64,000 bases of DNA, from the NCBI GenBank assembly GCA_028818695.1, contig JAPPNK010000004.1:124001-188000 (forward strand), read 5' to 3'. Under the pieces are notes generated by a model. The model made no database searches. It was not told where the DNA came from and was given only the letters and a program-made list of their open reading frames with translations. The stretch is from Candidatus Poribacteria bacterium. GTDB taxonomy: Bacteria > Poribacteria > WGA-4E > GCA-2687025. Positions 6,145 to 25,613 of this stretch are shown piece after piece (the stretch's first letter is position 1; the number at the start of each line of letters is the position of its first letter). The translations under genes and the position numbers were made by a program.

Positions 6145-7611
6145 CTATTCGGGGCGCCAGCTCCCTCGCATAATATTGACTATTCCCGCTGAAAAGCCTG
6201 AGAGGTCCGGCGGCGGGCCGGCGACCCATCTCTTCACCCGCCCGTTTGCAAGCTTTGCTTGGCGCATGAGAGAGCCGTCGCTGCGCCGCCTGTAGTATTC
6301 AAGACGCGTTCCGTCCTCCAGCGTTGTCCCAATCATCGACGAGATGCGGCCGGAGCCGTCTCTCGCGATTGTGGTCGCACTGCGGCTTTCAATCGCTCGG
6401 TCTTCTTTTTTCAACGCGGCGAAGGCGGGCAGCTCTTCCTGGGCAACGTAGCGCGTTTCCTTGCCGTCTTCAGACGTCCACTGTTCGAAACCGTCCTTTG
6501 GCGTCAATGAAACAATGCCGCGCGTCTCCATACCGAGCAGCTCGTTCTGTATTGTCTCCCGCCGCTTGCGGTCCTCCTCGGATCGGTATTCCACCCTTTG
6601 ATGTTCATTGTATACATAGACGCCGACGCGCGCCACATCGGTTGTTGAATCCCAGAACGAATAATCGGTTTTGGTCATTTGCTCTTCCTCTCCATTGCGT
6701 ATGTTTGCGCCTTCCATGTCTTGCGCGTCAAGTCGGTCTGCGGCAGTCGCCTGCGTGTCAAGTCGGTTTGCGGCAGCCGCCTGTGTGTCATGTCGGTCTG
6801 CGGCAGTCGCCTGCGTCTGCGTTTCTCGCTTCTTCGGCGCGTCGGACGCCTCGGTCTGCCTCAAGCGCGGGGACTGCCCCGTCTCGTCCAGGGGTATGGA
6901 CATGCCGCCGCCGTCTCCCGCCCGCTCTGCCGTTGACCCGTCGATGGATTCATTGGCGCCGCTTTGGATCTGCTTCGCCGTCCAGACGCCCGAAACCAGC
7001 GCGATGAGCGCCGCCGCCGCAGCGACAAGCGCCACCTTGGTCGATTTCGTCATGATAAGTACTCCTCCGTGCGCGTTTTGTTTCATGCTGGAGAGCGTCC
7101 ATGCGAGCGCGATCTTCATAGCGGTCAGCAGCTTTTTGAGCCGCTGCCGCGCTTTGAAGAGTCGAAACCCAACCGCCGAATAGGAGAGACCGTGCCGCTT
7201 TTGCAGCTCCTCGTAGGTCGCCTCTTCCATATACCGCGCCAGCAGCAGCTCTCGGTCGACAGGCTTGAGCATGCCGAGCGCTTGATGGACGCGCTCATTC
7301 CGCTCCGCCCGTTCCAGATCGTCATGCGGGCTTCGCTCGTCCGCCGGTATGGCGTCCACATCCGCAATCGGCAGCTCGCGCTTTTGTCGGTTCCATTCAA
7401 GAGCCGTGTTGCGCGCGACGCCGGCGATCCACTGCTTCAGCTTGGCGGGGTCGCGCAGCTGCGCCCTGTTGGAATATACCCGTAAGACGGTCTCTTGGAC
7501 GAAATCGTCCAGCTCGCTGCGGTCGCGCAGCAGCCGCCTTCCGATAGCGCGTATATGCCCGATCTGGCGCAGGACAGCCGCATCGAATGAGTTCATCTGC
7601 CGCTCTTTCAT
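6145..7611 (-). CDS. ECF-type sigma-70 factor fused to a membrane-anchored C-terminal domain
   Basis: Residues 1-165 form an extracytoplasmic-function sigma factor. Region 2 contains LDDFVQETVLRVYSN (about 34-48) and region 4 contains YEELQKRHGLSYSAVGFRL (133-151, helix-turn-helix). A transmembrane helix follows at about 192-212, then a low-complexity linker with three 10-residue repeats, and a soluble domain of about 170 residues with no family I recognise. The start at 7611 has GGGAG about 8 nt upstream. Met187 (ATG at 7053) has its own strong GGAGG ribosome-binding site, so the membrane part may also be made separately. This looks like two adjacent genes joined by loss of a stop. Two related membrane-anchored genes lie downstream on the same strand. 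Confidence 0.75.
   Translation of the reverse strand: MKERQMNSFDAAVLRQIGHIRAIGRRLLRDRSELDDFVQETVLRVYSNRAQLRDPAKLKQWIAGVARNTALEWNRQKRELPIADVDAIPADERSPHDDLERAERNERVHQALGMLKPVDRELLLARYMEEATYEELQKRHGLSYSAVGFRLFKARQRLKKLLTAMKIALAWTLSSMKQNAHGGVLIMTKSTKVALVAAAAALIALVSGVWTAKQIQSGANESIDGSTAERAGDGGGMSIPLDETGQSPRLRQTEASDAPKKRETQTQATAADRHDTQAAAANRLDTQATAADRLDAQDMEGANIRNGEEEQMTKTDYSFWDSTTDVARVGVYVYNEHQRVEYRSEEDRKRRETIQNELLGMETRGIVSLTPKDGFEQWTSEDGKETRYVAQEELPAFAALKKEDRAIESRSATTIARDGSGRISSMIGTTLEDGTRLEYYRRRSDGSLMRQAKLANGRVKRWVAGPPPDLSGFSAGIVNIMRGSWRPE
6721..6810 (-). repeat. Three 30-bp tandem repeats inside the sigma-fusion gene
   Basis: Three contiguous 30-bp units (6721-6750, 6751-6780, 6781-6810) share the core GTCGGT.TGCGGCAG.CGC and encode 10-residue units of the type ADRLDTQATA. 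The repeat lies in the linker between the membrane helix and the C-terminal domain and keeps the frame, so length changes would alter the linker without breaking the protein. Confidence 0.85.
7053..7070 (-). promoter_or_regulatory. Strong internal ribosome-binding site and start inside the sigma-fusion gene
   Basis: On the minus strand ACGGAGGAGTACTTATC directly precedes ATG 7053 (Met187 of the fusion). The spacing is normal, and the resulting protein would start MTKSTK followed by a membrane helix. That is the same N-terminal plan (MT, Lys/Arg, helix) as the genes at 4460-5215, 5218-5969 and 37035-37997. Such a site is expected at a real gene start and is unusual inside one. Confidence 0.55.
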
Positions 7612-21428: not shown

Positions 21429-22226
21429 TCACTCAGCCGATTTCAAACTGCCCCAAAGAGAAGCGGATTTGCCGATCGGATCGACCGATGTGGTCGGGAA
21501 AGCGTCCGGTAGCCAGTTGTTGAACAGCTCCGTGACGACCGCCCCGCGCGGCAGGTTGTCGTTGGCGACCTGCATGACGATGCCGACCATGCCCATGTAG
21601 TCCGCATGCTGGATGATCGCCGGGTCTTCGCCGAGAGGACCCTCCGCAAAGACGACAGCGTAATCCCAGTTCTCGTCCGCCTCAACCTGCTCCTTTCTGA
21701 AGGAGCGGTTCGACTGGAAACCTTCCAGGCTGGGCAGATATTTGCTTCCATCGGCGGTCGGAGCGACATTGTTGCCGTCCGTCCACATATCGAAGGCGCT
21801 GTCGGTGACGTTCTGGAGTCCGCCCACCTCGTTCGCTCCTCCGCCGAGGGTCACATAAAAAATGTAGTCGGCGGTGTTGAGGTAGAGGTTCCCGTCTTCG
21901 ATATACTTTTCGATGATGGAGTCGTCCGGCTCGGCGTTGCCGGGCGCATAGACGGTTTCAGGCAGGTACCCGAAGGTGAAGAAGACGTCAACGTCTCCGT
22001 CGCCGGTGCTGTCGGCAAGGAAGCTGGCGGATTCGTCCAGATTGACCGCCATGATGTCGGTGGATGTTGTGTTGCTGAGGATTTCATCAGCGGCGGCGTT
22101 GGCGGCGTCTTGCCCGATCCAGCCCACCTTTTCGTGGAAGACGGCGATCTGCCCAAGCGACTGGGCGGCGGCCGTTCCGCACACGAGAATCATTGCTGCG
22201 ATGACAGCGTTCATTACATTGCGCAT
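21429..22226 (-). CDS. Exported protein, paralog of the next gene, with C-terminal SVDPxGK tag
   Basis: The signal peptide MRNVMNAVIAAMILVCGTAAAQ starts at ATG 22226, which has AAGGAG upstream. The mature part includes GDGDVDVFFTFGYLPETVYA, an Asp-rich segment, and YIEDGNLYLNTADYIFYV. This resembles the adjacent paralog at 22259-23077 over its whole length. The C-terminus is TTSVDPIGKSASLWGSLKSAE. The same SVDPxGKxAxxWxxLK ending is found on that paralog and on the LamG protein at 35360. Some strands look GATase/ThuA-like (low certainty). Probably secreted or periplasmic; function unknown. Confidence 0.65.
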   Translation of the reverse strand: MRNVMNAVIAAMILVCGTAAAQSLGQIAVFHEKVGWIGQDAANAAADEILSNTTSTDIMAVNLDESASFLADSTGDGDVDVFFTFGYLPETVYAPGNAEPDDSIIEKYIEDGNLYLNTADYIFYVTLGGGANEVGGLQNVTDSAFDMWTDGNNVAPTADGSKYLPSLEGFQSNRSFRKEQVEADENWDYAVVFAEGPLGEDPAIIQHADYMGMVGIVMQVANDNLPRGAVVTELFNNWLPDAFPTTSVDPIGKSASLWGSLKSAE

Positions 22227-22258
22227 GGCGCGTTCTCCTTGTTTGTTGTTGCGCGCGT

Positions 22259-23077
22259 TTATCTTGCGGCGCGCTGACGCTTCAGATTGCCCCACAACGC
22301 AGCCGCTTTGCCGATCGGATCGACCGACTGCGGCTGTATCGATTCGGGAACCCAGTTGTTGAAGATTTCGAGCGCGACCTCGGCGCGGTTGAGGCCGTCA
22401 TTGACGACCTGCATCCAGATGCCGACGCGCCCGCCCGTTGCGGCATTGTAGATGATGACGGGGTCGTATCCAAGAGGCCCGCTTCCAAAGACAACCTCTG
22501 CCTCCCATGCCGGGTCCGCCTCGATCTGACCAGGTTTGAAGGAGCGGTTGGAGGTGAAGTTGCCGAGGCTTGGGGCGTATTTTTTTCCGTCGGCAGTCGG
22601 CGCAATGGCGTTGCCGTCCGTCCACAGATCGAAGGTTGTGTCGGTGATGTTCTGGAGTCCAGGCGCCTCGTTCGCCCCACCTCCCAGAGTCACATAGAAG
22701 ATGTAGTCGGCGGTGTTCATGACGAAGTTGCCGTCGTCGATAAACTCTTCAACCAGGGAGCCTTCAGGCTCGCCGTTTCCCGGCGCGTAGATGGTCTGGG
22801 GCGTGTACCCGAACAGCACAAGGCAGTCGACGTCGCCGTCCCCCGTGTTCTGTTCAACCCATTCGGCGACGCCGTCCAGGTTGTACGCTTTCGGGTTTTG
22901 GAACGATTTGACGCCTGCGATGATCGCGTCTCCGATCTCTTTCGCTTTGCCGACTGCGATCCATCCCACATTGTCGTAAAAGACAGCCATCTCTCCGGCG
23001 TTCGCTTGCGCTTTTTGTTCGCCGCATGTTGCCGCAAGCAGGAGCGCGGCGCAGACGCTGTAGATGATTTTGCGCAT
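22259..23077 (-). CDS. Exported protein, paralog of the preceding gene, with C-terminal SVDPxGK tag
   Basis: ATG 23077 follows GGAGGAT and opens a signal peptide (MRKIIYSVCAALLLAATCG). The mature domain shares GDGDVD, FGYTPQTIYAPGN, NTADYIFYVTLGGGANE and WTDGN..APTADG with its neighbour, so the two are tandem duplicates that have diverged. The end QSVDPIGKAAALWGNLKRQ carries the common C-terminal tag. A good promoter lies 44-72 bp upstream. The pair is probably one transcript with a 32-bp gap. Confidence 0.65.
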   Translation of the reverse strand: MRKIIYSVCAALLLAATCGEQKAQANAGEMAVFYDNVGWIAVGKAKEIGDAIIAGVKSFQNPKAYNLDGVAEWVEQNTGDGDVDCLVLFGYTPQTIYAPGNGEPEGSLVEEFIDDGNFVMNTADYIFYVTLGGGANEAPGLQNITDTTFDLWTDGNAIAPTADGKKYAPSLGNFTSNRSFKPGQIEADPAWEAEVVFGSGPLGYDPVIIYNAATGGRVGIWMQVVNDGLNRAEVALEIFNNWVPESIQPQSVDPIGKAAALWGNLKRQRAAR

Positions 23078-23120
23078 TCTATCCTCCGTTGCATGTAGGC
23101 TCGCTATTTTAGTTAAATCG

Positions 23121-23149
23121 ACTATAGTATAAGCCGCCAAAAATTTCAA
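23121..23149 (-). promoter_or_regulatory. Sigma70-type promoter of the exported paralog pair
   Basis: On the minus strand, -35 TTGAAA (23149-23144), a 17-bp spacer and -10 TATAGT (23126-23121) precede the 23077 start by about 45 bp. Both boxes are close to consensus. Confidence 0.65.
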
Positions 23150-23433
23150 ACCCCTGCCTCTAACCTCATGCGTAAAGTTGGGACATCATGACAAAAGAAC
23201 CGCGGCGATCAGCGGAAAAGCCGCCGCCCCGACCGTCGCAAGCGGAAATGACGAGATGAGCGCGCGGGAACGGCGCCTGCTTTACAATCGAGGCGAAATG
23301 CGAAGCAGATTGCCGTTTTAAAGAGCGTCCGCTGAGGCGCCAGGTTGCGCAGCGGAAACCGATGGAGTATAGTAAGCGCGCTTTGAAGGCAAGACTCGCG
23401 GAAAGGAGGAAGGCAGCCTCTGCCGCCTAAACC
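23150..23433. other. Intergenic stretch between divergent genes, with a short repeat module
   Basis: About 280 bp without a convincing gene. At 23161-23188 there is text (CCTCATGCGTAAAGTTGGG) related to the interspersed repeat head. AAAGGAGG at 23401-23408 lies about 26 bp before the ATG of the Hfq-like gene, too far for an ordinary ribosome-binding site. Confidence 0.4.
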
Positions 23434-24186
23434 ATGAACGACCGACCAAAACGATACCGCTCCACGACCCGCGTTTGGACGCCTGACAGATCGTCCACTT
23501 CACGCTCCCGCGCTGCCGGCGCGGAATCCTCATACCAATCCTCTTCCCGCCCGACCCGCTCCGCAAACGCGCGCCGATCCCCGCGCGGAAAACGCGCGCC
23601 CTATTCCGCCAAGGAGCGCCGAAAAAAACGCGAGGGGTTTGGACGACTCTATGTTGACAAGCAGATTCATCTTCAAACGCCGATGGTCTTCGAAACATAC
23701 GACGGACCTGTCGAAGCGGTCATTGCGCGAAGACTCTGCTACGACCTAGACCTGGAAACGAACGGCGAAATCGAACGGCTCAACAAACTGCCCATTAAGT
23801 ACATGTATAAAAAGGCGGATGAAACAGCCGTCAAACGCGGCGCGCGGTATAACGAACGAGTGCGCGCCGAGCGTCTGAAACCGATCAAGGCGCGCGCCCA
23901 GCGCTTTCGCATCGACACGCGCCAGCTCGCCTTTGCCCGAAAAAAAGAACGGCTCATTCGCGTCACAATGCGCGGCGGAGAGGTGTTTGAGGGCTGGATC
24001 GACTGGTACAGCTATTTTGAGATCAAGATGCGTCTCGGCAAAAAATCGCCCTCCGTCGTCCTGTTTCGACATGCGGCGTACGCGTTTGAGATGGAAGGCG
24101 GAATGCCCTCCCGAAACAACCAACCGCGGCACAACCGAAGCGCCGCTTCCGACTACCGACCGCGAACCTACTACGGGCAGCGTTGA
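23434..24186 (+). CDS. Tandem Sm/Hfq-like RNA-binding protein with a basic disordered N-terminus
   Basis: 250 residues. The first 68 are Arg/Ser/Pro-rich and probably disordered. Residues 83-130 (MVFETYDGPVEAVIARR..YDLDL..IKYMYKKAD) and 172-222 (LIRVTMRGGEVFEGWIDW..FEIKMRLG..VVLFRHAAYAFE) each fit the Sm fold. In each, a beta1-beta2-beta3 unit with a central G.V or G.I step is followed by a short Sm2 motif. The second matches the Hfq pattern best, its LFRHA corresponding to the Hfq YKHA. A basic linker joins them and the tail is also basic. A role as an RNA chaperone or RNA-binding regulator is inference. It is followed 11 bp later by the sulfatase-fold gene. Confidence 0.65.
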   Translation: MNDRPKRYRSTTRVWTPDRSSTSRSRAAGAESSYQSSSRPTRSANARRSPRGKRAPYSAKERRKKREGFGRLYVDKQIHLQTPMVFETYDGPVEAVIARRLCYDLDLETNGEIERLNKLPIKYMYKKADETAVKRGARYNERVRAERLKPIKARAQRFRIDTRQLAFARKKERLIRVTMRGGEVFEGWIDWYSYFEIKMRLGKKSPSVVLFRHAAYAFEMEGGMPSRNNQPRHNRSAASDYRPRTYYGQR

Positions 24187-24197
24187 AAGGAACCGAC

Positions 24198-25613
24198 ATG
24201 AGCGCAGACAAGCAAGAAACGAAGCGGCATTGGAACATCGTCGTTGTGGTGGCGGACACCTTCCGCTCCGGCTACATCGGAGCGTACGGCAACGACTGGG
24301 TGCGAACGCCCAACCTAGACAAATTCGCCCGGCAAGGCGTCCGGTTCACGCGCGCCCATCCCGAATGCCTGCCGACCATCCCGACTCGGCGCACGCTCCA
24401 CAGCGGACGCCGCGCCTTTCCGTTCAACGACTACAAGCCCGTTCCATGGGACAACGTCTACCTTCCCGGCTGGCAGCCGATGTCGCCCGACGAAACAACC
24501 GTCGCCGAGACGCTTGTCCGAAAGGGGTACCATACCGGCTTTTTTGGCGACGTTCCCCACTACTTTGTGCCGGGGATGAACTTCACGCGCGGCTTTCGTC
24601 AGTGGGAGTATGTGCGCGGGCAGGCGGAAGACCGGTACCGCGCCCCCGCCCATGCAGACGCGTCGCTGCTCTCCCGATACGAGGGCGGCGAGGGGCGCAT
24701 CCGAGCGCATCTGGTGAATGTTCAACCTGAGCAGCCCGAAGAGACCTGGCCCACGGCGCGCACCTTCCGAAGCGCGATACGATTCATTGAGCAGAACGCT
24801 GTCAACACGCCGTTTTATCTTTACGTCGACAGCTTCACCCCGCATGAGACCTGGGAAGCGCCGATCCATTACTACGATCTTTACGGAACGCGCGAGCAGC
24901 GGGAGCCGATCTGCATCACGGTTCCATACGGGAGCGTCAAAGAAGGTTCCGTCATTGAACGGCAGCTGCCGAGCATACGCGCCAACTACGCGGGCCTCTG
25001 CTCCTTGGTGGACGCATGGTTCGGGAAGCTGCTGGACGCGCTGGACCGCCTCGCCCTTGCCGATTCGACGCTTGTGTATTTTTTGAGCGACCACGGGACG
25101 AACTTTGCCGACAACGCCGACAGAGTGACGGGCAAACCGGCAAGCTACATGAACCGCGGGACGATGGACATTCCGCTCATCGCGCGCCATCCAGACGGCT
25201 GCGGCGCGGGAGAGACGGTCGATGAGCTGGTCTATACGGTCGATGTCCCGGCGACAACCTTTGATGCAACGGGATTGACCCCCGGCGGGGAAGTTCACGG
25301 ACAGAGCCTGCTTCCGCTCATGGAGGGAAAGAGCGGCTTTGAGGCGCGGGAGTATCTCACCTGCCGATACGGCAATTTTGTCTGGCACCGCGACGCCAAA
25401 ACCTGGTATTTCAGCTCCGCAGACTTTTCAAATCCGCGCGTATACGACCTGGAAGCGGACGCCGGGCTGGAGCGCAACATCGCCGAGTCGGCGCCCGATC
25501 GAGTCAAGCTGGCGCAGGAGCGCATCTTGAAGGACGCCGGCGGGCGGATTCCGATCTATGCGCGCAAAGGCGGCACAGACGCCATCGGACGCCCCCAGTT
25601 TGTCGAGAGTTGA
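24198..25613 (+). CDS. Sulfatase/alkaline-phosphatase-superfamily hydrolase with Thr at the nucleophile position
   Basis: The 471-residue protein has the sulfatase-family fold. The N-terminus NIVVVVADTFRSGYIG gives a metal-site Asp20, and late FLSDHGTNFAD supplies the second metal pair. The nucleophile segment reads PECLPTIPTRRTLHSG. The family pattern C/S-x-P-x-R aligns with T60-I-P-T-R64, so the Cys or Ser that becomes formylglycine is replaced by Thr (a Cys lies three residues earlier, at 57). Thr nucleophiles occur in phosphodiesterases and phosphonoacetate hydrolases of the same superfamily. The activity is therefore doubtful as a sulfatase and may be phosphatase-like. ATG 24198 follows AAAGGA. 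Confidence 0.75.
   Translation: MSADKQETKRHWNIVVVVADTFRSGYIGAYGNDWVRTPNLDKFARQGVRFTRAHPECLPTIPTRRTLHSGRRAFPFNDYKPVPWDNVYLPGWQPMSPDETTVAETLVRKGYHTGFFGDVPHYFVPGMNFTRGFRQWEYVRGQAEDRYRAPAHADASLLSRYEGGEGRIRAHLVNVQPEQPEETWPTARTFRSAIRFIEQNAVNTPFYLYVDSFTPHETWEAPIHYYDLYGTREQREPICITVPYGSVKEGSVIERQLPSIRANYAGLCSLVDAWFGKLLDALDRLALADSTLVYFLSDHGTNFADNADRVTGKPASYMNRGTMDIPLIARHPDGCGAGETVDELVYTVDVPATTFDATGLTPGGEVHGQSLLPLMEGKSGFEAREYLTCRYGNFVWHRDAKTWYFSSADFSNPRVYDLEADAGLERNIAESAPDRVKLAQERILKDAGGRIPIYARKGGTDAIGRPQFVES

Follow-up and report, generated by a model that had tools for sequence, protein, structure and literature searches.

A tandem Sm/Hfq-like protein of Candidatus Poribacteria with two unlike predicted Sm domains in one chain

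The tandem Sm gene, its locus and its predicted domains

The window, a 64,000-nucleotide stretch of genomic DNA, carries on its forward strand at 23434-24186 a gene for a 250-amino acid tandem Sm/Hfq-like protein with homologs across Candidatus Poribacteria. The ATG at 23434, with no start codon between it and the preceding in-frame stop, and the stop codon at 24184-24186 delimit the ORF exactly as in a preliminary description of the DNA. A family-alignment scan of named genomes assigned the host to Ca. Poribacteria, a mostly uncultured and poorly known bacterial phylum. Because a protein search found homologs in 49 of 49 high-quality genomes of relatives (54 of 58 when all were counted), the ORF is not a chance reading frame. 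In the leader (23404-23433), an AGGAGG lies 24 nt upstream of the ATG, and a GGCAG-CCT-CTGCC hairpin between the two could bring them closer together. As a whole, the 5′ leader is no more strongly folded than shuffled versions of itself (z 0.53), and an Rfam search around the gene found no RNA element. Searches of IMG/VR and phages with the window protein gave no match, the IMG/VR scans consisting of a few short motifs that distant copies could escape, nor did a plasmid search with a diverged relative, and a viral or plasmid origin of the gene was rejected on these results.

Downstream on the same strand are an ORF with a sulfatase fold (24198-25613; Pfam Sulfatase, 8.7e-36) and a NUDIX ORF that starts at 25610. 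Since the ATG of the sulfatase-fold ORF lies only 11 nt after the tandem Sm stop codon, the two genes are probably co-transcribed. The sulfatase-fold ORF has T-I-P-T-R where sulfatases read C/S-x-P-x-R; its Cys/Ser nucleophile seems to be replaced by Thr, and it may not be a sulfatase. On the reverse strand, 21429-22295 and 22259-23149 encode adjoining, clearly related secreted proteins, which are tandem duplicates with no significant Pfam match. The tandem Sm gene had been described as the first of a small cluster with the sulfatase-fold gene, which agrees with the same-strand run and the short gap, but the cluster is absent from the nearest relatives. Neighboring genes differ in the other two window-family genomes that possess the gene (G005 and G002) and in the other families examined, and the sulfatase-like gene of the G002 locus is several kb from the tandem Sm gene and has 24% identity. 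Because the nearest relatives do not share it, the sulfatase/NUDIX cluster is uninformative about function, and the operon was rejected as a functional clue.

An AlphaFold2 model of the window protein, built with 32 homologs, contains two complete helix-plus-five-strand Hfq/Sm folds predicted with high confidence (block-mean pLDDT 90-98 across residues 71-220). Domain A (residues 67-128; 23632-23817) is composed of a helix at 59-80 and strands at 83-88, 91-100, 104-109, 112-117, and 121-126, and it contains an invariant K118 and an IKYxYK strand (K122, Y123, Y125, K126). A basic helical linker (residues 129-157; 23818-23904; calculated pI 11.3) connects it to domain B (residues 158-222; 23905-24099), with a helix at 162-170 and strands at 175-179, 183-192, 196-200, 207-211, and 215-220. 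The N-terminal helix and five-strand bent barrel that define the Hfq/Sm superfamily are thus present in both predicted halves. Using VIA-align, domain A (64-129) was superposed on Escherichia coli Hfq 4jrk_B with a Z of 7.2 and an rmsd of 2.2 over 65 residues, and domain B (161-222) on Caulobacter Hfq 6gwk_A with a Z of 7.1 and an rmsd of 0.9 over 60 residues; a Z of about 7 is moderate, and is of the size expected for 60-residue domains. In a Foldseek search with the model, every match listed was Hfq, one of them below 0.001. The model therefore bears out the initial suggestion of two Sm-like units joined by a basic linker, which a model without an Sm fold would have contradicted, and the VVLFRHA motif noticed in the second unit is found within S-V-V-L-F-R-H-A-A (S207-A215).

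The two domains are flanked by basic, disordered extensions, and the whole protein has a calculated net charge of about +32. The C-terminal extension (residues 223-250; 24100-24183) was delimited from the model and a charge calculation. The calculated pI of the N-terminal tail (residues 1-66; 23434-23631) is 12.0, and through residue 50, before the helix that starts at 59, its block-mean pLDDT stays under 60. The N terminus was initially described as basic and disordered, which is correct but incomplete: comparison of N termini revealed a T-R-V-W-T-P motif at residues 12-17 (23467-23484), conserved in tail-type homologs from several families, and in a sister paralog the same place is occupied by a cold-shock domain (CSD). 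The closest homolog, from the same family (L031:7635-8636), has a long glycine/arginine-rich C-terminal tail with GRPGGGRPQGG repeats.

Relation of domains A and B to Hfq

Hfq is the textbook example of a ring of six identical one-domain subunits; it binds U-rich RNA on its proximal face and A-rich RNA on its distal face, and promotes sRNA-mRNA pairing. A Pfam search with the window protein alone detected no Hfq or LSm match, the Hfq model TIGR02383 aligned with its C-terminal half at 12.0 bits (E 0.14), below the cut-off of 61.7, and the archaeal Hfq-like protein MJ1435 was matched at an E of 0.05. By curated cut-offs the window protein is therefore outside PF17209 and TIGR02383. The family profile of domain B recovered MJ1435 at an E of 1e-7, Caulobacter Hfq at 1e-5, and many other proteins, and by this profile evidence domain B is a homolog of Hfq and MJ1435. 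The profile of domain A reached Staphylococcus aureus Hfq at an E of only 0.47, and direct profile comparison of A against B gave no significant match; at the level of its own sequence, domain A is too diverged for recognition. A link is provided by a 93-amino acid single-Sm protein from a sister class (L110), which matches the A profile at 28.1 bits and the B profile at 23.8 bits and exceeds the Pfam cut-offs for both Hfq_1 and Hfq. Because this protein matches both profiles alike, and because of the predicted structure, we regard domain A as a relative of Hfq. The early reading of a tandem Sm/Hfq protein is upheld in that the B half is an Hfq homolog by profile and both halves have a predicted Sm fold, although the profile searches proposed for the two halves succeeded for B with the family profile and failed for A alone, and for the window protein with the Pfam Hfq and LSm models.

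The Y/F-K/R-H motif of the proximal site, located before the last strand, is found only in domain B, where HMMER alignments place F211-R212-H213 (24064-24072) at the position of Y-K-H in Hfq and F-K-H in MJ1435; the equivalent in domain A is K118-L119, without the His. In the family alignment, the F and H of this motif are invariant and the R is at least 90% conserved. Invariant residues of the family map to the K/R-H site and to the last strand of domain A, and few parts of that domain are as well conserved as this strand. Distal-face residues of Hfq are not obviously retained: by our reading of the alignment, E183 lies near the position of E. coli Hfq Ile30, as it does in MJ1435.

Compared with Hfq (PF17209, TIGR02383), the window protein shares the helix-plus-five-strand Sm fold in both halves, the F-R-H at the Y-K-H place, and disordered tails, which are common in Hfq. 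It differs in that the model has two unlike domains per chain where the Hfq family has one, in a domain A that lacks the motif His and is unseen by Hfq models, and in a W-motif tail that is long, basic, and at the N terminus, the usual position in Hfq being the C terminus. The closest sequence relatives of domain B, MJ1435 (PDB 2qtx, 4x9c, 5dy9) and Hfq-related cyanobacterial proteins (PF21979, NF047718), have the same L-R-x-G-E and F-[KR]-H motifs but are single-domain proteins of about 70 residues. The “RNA chaperone Hfq” model NF010691/PRK14091, which we take to represent the tandem Hfq chains known in some sphingomonads, is 176 positions long, more than twice one Hfq domain. A search with NF010691 gave no match for the window protein or its closest homolog, and where it matched poribacterial proteins it did so over one model stretch at 18-23 bits (best 22.9) against a cut-off of 270; on these scores the poribacterial tandem Sm proteins are outside the NF010691/PRK14091 family. 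A literature search on tandem Hfq, Poribacteria with Hfq, and CSD-Hfq fusions found nothing relevant among the papers covered. A paper on FlgV describes two prokaryotic Hfq clades and names Poribacteria for FlgV only (PMC11607428).

Distribution, paralogs and fusions in Ca. Poribacteria

The scan of named genomes detected 59 loci, every one in a record named Candidatus Poribacteria or uncultured Poribacteria; because its peptide pattern was specific to domain A, remoter relatives may have escaped it. A phylum-wide search found a family member in 79 of 84 genomes and in all 55 that are of high quality, counting L110 among the 79, and the five genomes without a family match are all less than 90% complete. 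The family is present almost everywhere in the window's class. Two genomes fall outside this class, one without a match and the other (G059) with the single-Sm L110 protein. A Pfam Hfq search of 81 genomes of the class detected no clear one-domain Hfq: the matches lie in reading frames of at least 158 codons, with one exception of 84 codons (G009:C54), in which a stop codon falls inside the Pfam Hfq match. In the window genome, searches with the window protein and the family profile found a single tandem Sm copy, of the tail type, and neither these searches nor the Pfam Hfq model turned up another hfq there, a check that had been proposed earlier. With the Pfam PF00313 model, no cold-shock domain protein was detected in the window genome (G000, 91% complete), while other Poribacteria carry a CSD fused to the tandem Sm unit.

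Two types of paralog are found, one consisting of a CSD, a disordered linker, and the tandem Sm unit, and the other, to which the window protein belongs, of a basic tail and the tandem Sm unit. The cold-shock type accounts for 49 of the 59 named loci. Its CSD is genuine (PF00313, family best E 5e-21), and what sets it apart from cold-shock proteins is the attached tandem Sm unit. A maximum likelihood tree separates a side of mostly CSD proteins from a side of mostly tail proteins, the placement of the long-branched L118 (CSD) and L119 (tail) being unsure. Since both types coexist in families f3 and f6, the split is old. In the CSD type, the basic patch that follows the helix of domain A is gone; an AlphaFold2 model of this paralog had a mean pLDDT of 56 and served only for the order of elements. 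Directly downstream of the CSD/tandem-Sm gene, on the same strand and with a median gap of about 12 nt, a CxxCxxCC-type gene (zinc/iron-chelating type) is a conserved partner at 49 of 49 loci (for example, L047:8471-9037); its Pfam score of 22.4 bits is slightly below the cut-off of 23. A Trp close to the N terminus is shared by 13 of about 16 distinct tail-type proteins from families f1, f3, f4, f6, and f8, an observation on a small set in which some start codons are uncertain. Around this Trp the sequence resembles T/S-x-x-W-[TRQ]-[PSAN]; the window protein reads TRVWTP, and others read RTLVWRA, KTSVWTP, and RTLTWTP. Two further proteins are possible intermediates, one with a CSD and one Sm domain in the incomplete genome G009 (L126:5119-5700, reverse strand) and the other the single-Sm L110 itself (6155-6433, reverse strand).

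Diverged tandem modules reside in large proteins of other Poribacteria, those of the TmtA-like, GmrSD, and UvrD kinds being 800-1340 amino acids long. The module is C-terminal in two TmtA/sacsin-like fusions, L111 (3036-6758) and L112 (6080-9703), and N-terminal in a third, L131. GmrSD fusions comprise L113 (3715-7092), which contains two copies of the module, and L115, L116, L117, L122, and L124, several of them with a CSD. The module is fused to a UvrD helicase in L114 (3063-7076), together with S1, and in L123, and to an RNase H-like protein in L121, and L120 is an S1-S1-tandem-CSD protein. Short stand-alone tandems adjoin either Type ISP restriction enzymes (L105) or DrmD-like SNF2 helicases together with the TmtA-like fusion L131. 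Judged by their PADLOC and Pfam labels, the proteins fused to or beside the diverged modules would have a role in defense. Several diverged tandem relatives pass the curated cut-off of PF17209 and can be aligned with the family over both domains, and a profile made solely of diverged defense-type tandems recovers the window protein (L134 is the window region) over residues 80-219 at an E of 1.5e-16.

Proposed mechanism and alternatives

We favor, with some confidence, a reading in which the window protein is a divergent Hfq-type RNA-binding protein with two unlike Sm domains per chain that stands in for Hfq in Ca. Poribacteria, the three-chain ring, the chaperone role, and the docking of the tail being taken together as one statement. 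Domains A and B would pack side by side like neighboring subunits of a ring, and three chains would close a six-domain ring, A-B-A-B-A-B; this pseudo-hexamer follows from the logic of Sm rings. Domain B, with its F-R-H motif and kept helix, would retain an Hfq-like proximal RNA site, and domain A, with an invariant Lys and no His, would be structural or have an altered site. Non-specific RNA contacts and faster RNA annealing may come from the tail, linker, and C terminus, all strongly basic, and the conserved T-x-x-W-[TR]-P-like motif, placed at the tail's tip, may be a docking peptide for another protein, a cold-shock RNA-binding domain taking the tail's place in the sister paralog. That the window protein binds RNA is suggested by its family, the motif, and the fused domains: the CSD fusion at 49 of the 59 loci, and the S1 or CSD of some diverged relatives, point to the binding of nucleic acid, probably RNA. 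A global RNA-chaperone role is suggested by near-universality in the class. Against an Hfq-like mechanism stand the missing His in domain A, its weak sequence relation to Hfq on its own, and distal-face residues that are not plainly conserved, and we know of no sRNA partner in Ca. Poribacteria.

In an alternative account, the tandem unit is a ring-less RNA-binding adaptor: a chain or dimer would bind short RNA and deliver it, or respond to it, by way of its fused part, be this a W-motif tail, a CSD, a nuclease, or an ATPase. The large fusion proteins, in which a three-chain ring would be bulky, are in keeping with such an adaptor, as are the strong divergence of A from B and the loss of the basic patch in the CSD-type domain A. 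A monomer, however, would leave the edges of strands β4 and β5 exposed, the conservation of the last strand of A is what would be expected of an interface, and to our knowledge every Sm/Hfq protein of solved structure works as a ring; we consider the adaptor unlikely, if a serious alternative. The high positive charge and the lysine/arginine-rich, low-complexity tails would also suit a DNA-compacting, nucleoid-type protein, with tails that bind DNA and an Sm core that is a scaffold for multimerization, and E. coli Hfq binds DNA too, its double-stranded DNA complex 5uk7 being among the structural matches. Replacement of the tail by a CSD in the sister paralog, the invariant or nearly invariant F-R-H motif of the RNA site, and the S1 or CSD fusions of some relatives make this improbable. 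Least probable of all, to the point of being nearly discounted, is that the protein regulates the sulfatase/NUDIX operon locally: the gene heads that same-strand run, but synteny in the two further window-family genomes and in other families largely refutes the idea.

Returning to the Hfq-type reading, we tentatively extend it to the phylum, as a possibility that we hold at less than even strength. Ca. Poribacteria may have replaced Hfq by a phylum-specific A-B Sm module that is now a general RNA-reading part, joined to a CSD for housekeeping tasks on RNA and, in repeated instances, fused or adjacent to anti-phage proteins (TmtA-like, GmrSD, UvrD, Type ISP restriction, DrmD-like helicase) as an RNA-sensing or RNA-guided part. 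We know of no precedent for an Hfq-type module that senses nucleic acid in immunity, a capacity suggested by the fusions to likely defense proteins. In most of the class, the CSD/tandem-Sm protein unites two classic RNA-chaperone folds in each chain. A ring in Poribacteria, if there is one, would consist of two unlike, covalently joined domains, a natural asymmetric Hfq in which a division of labor between subunits would be directly testable.
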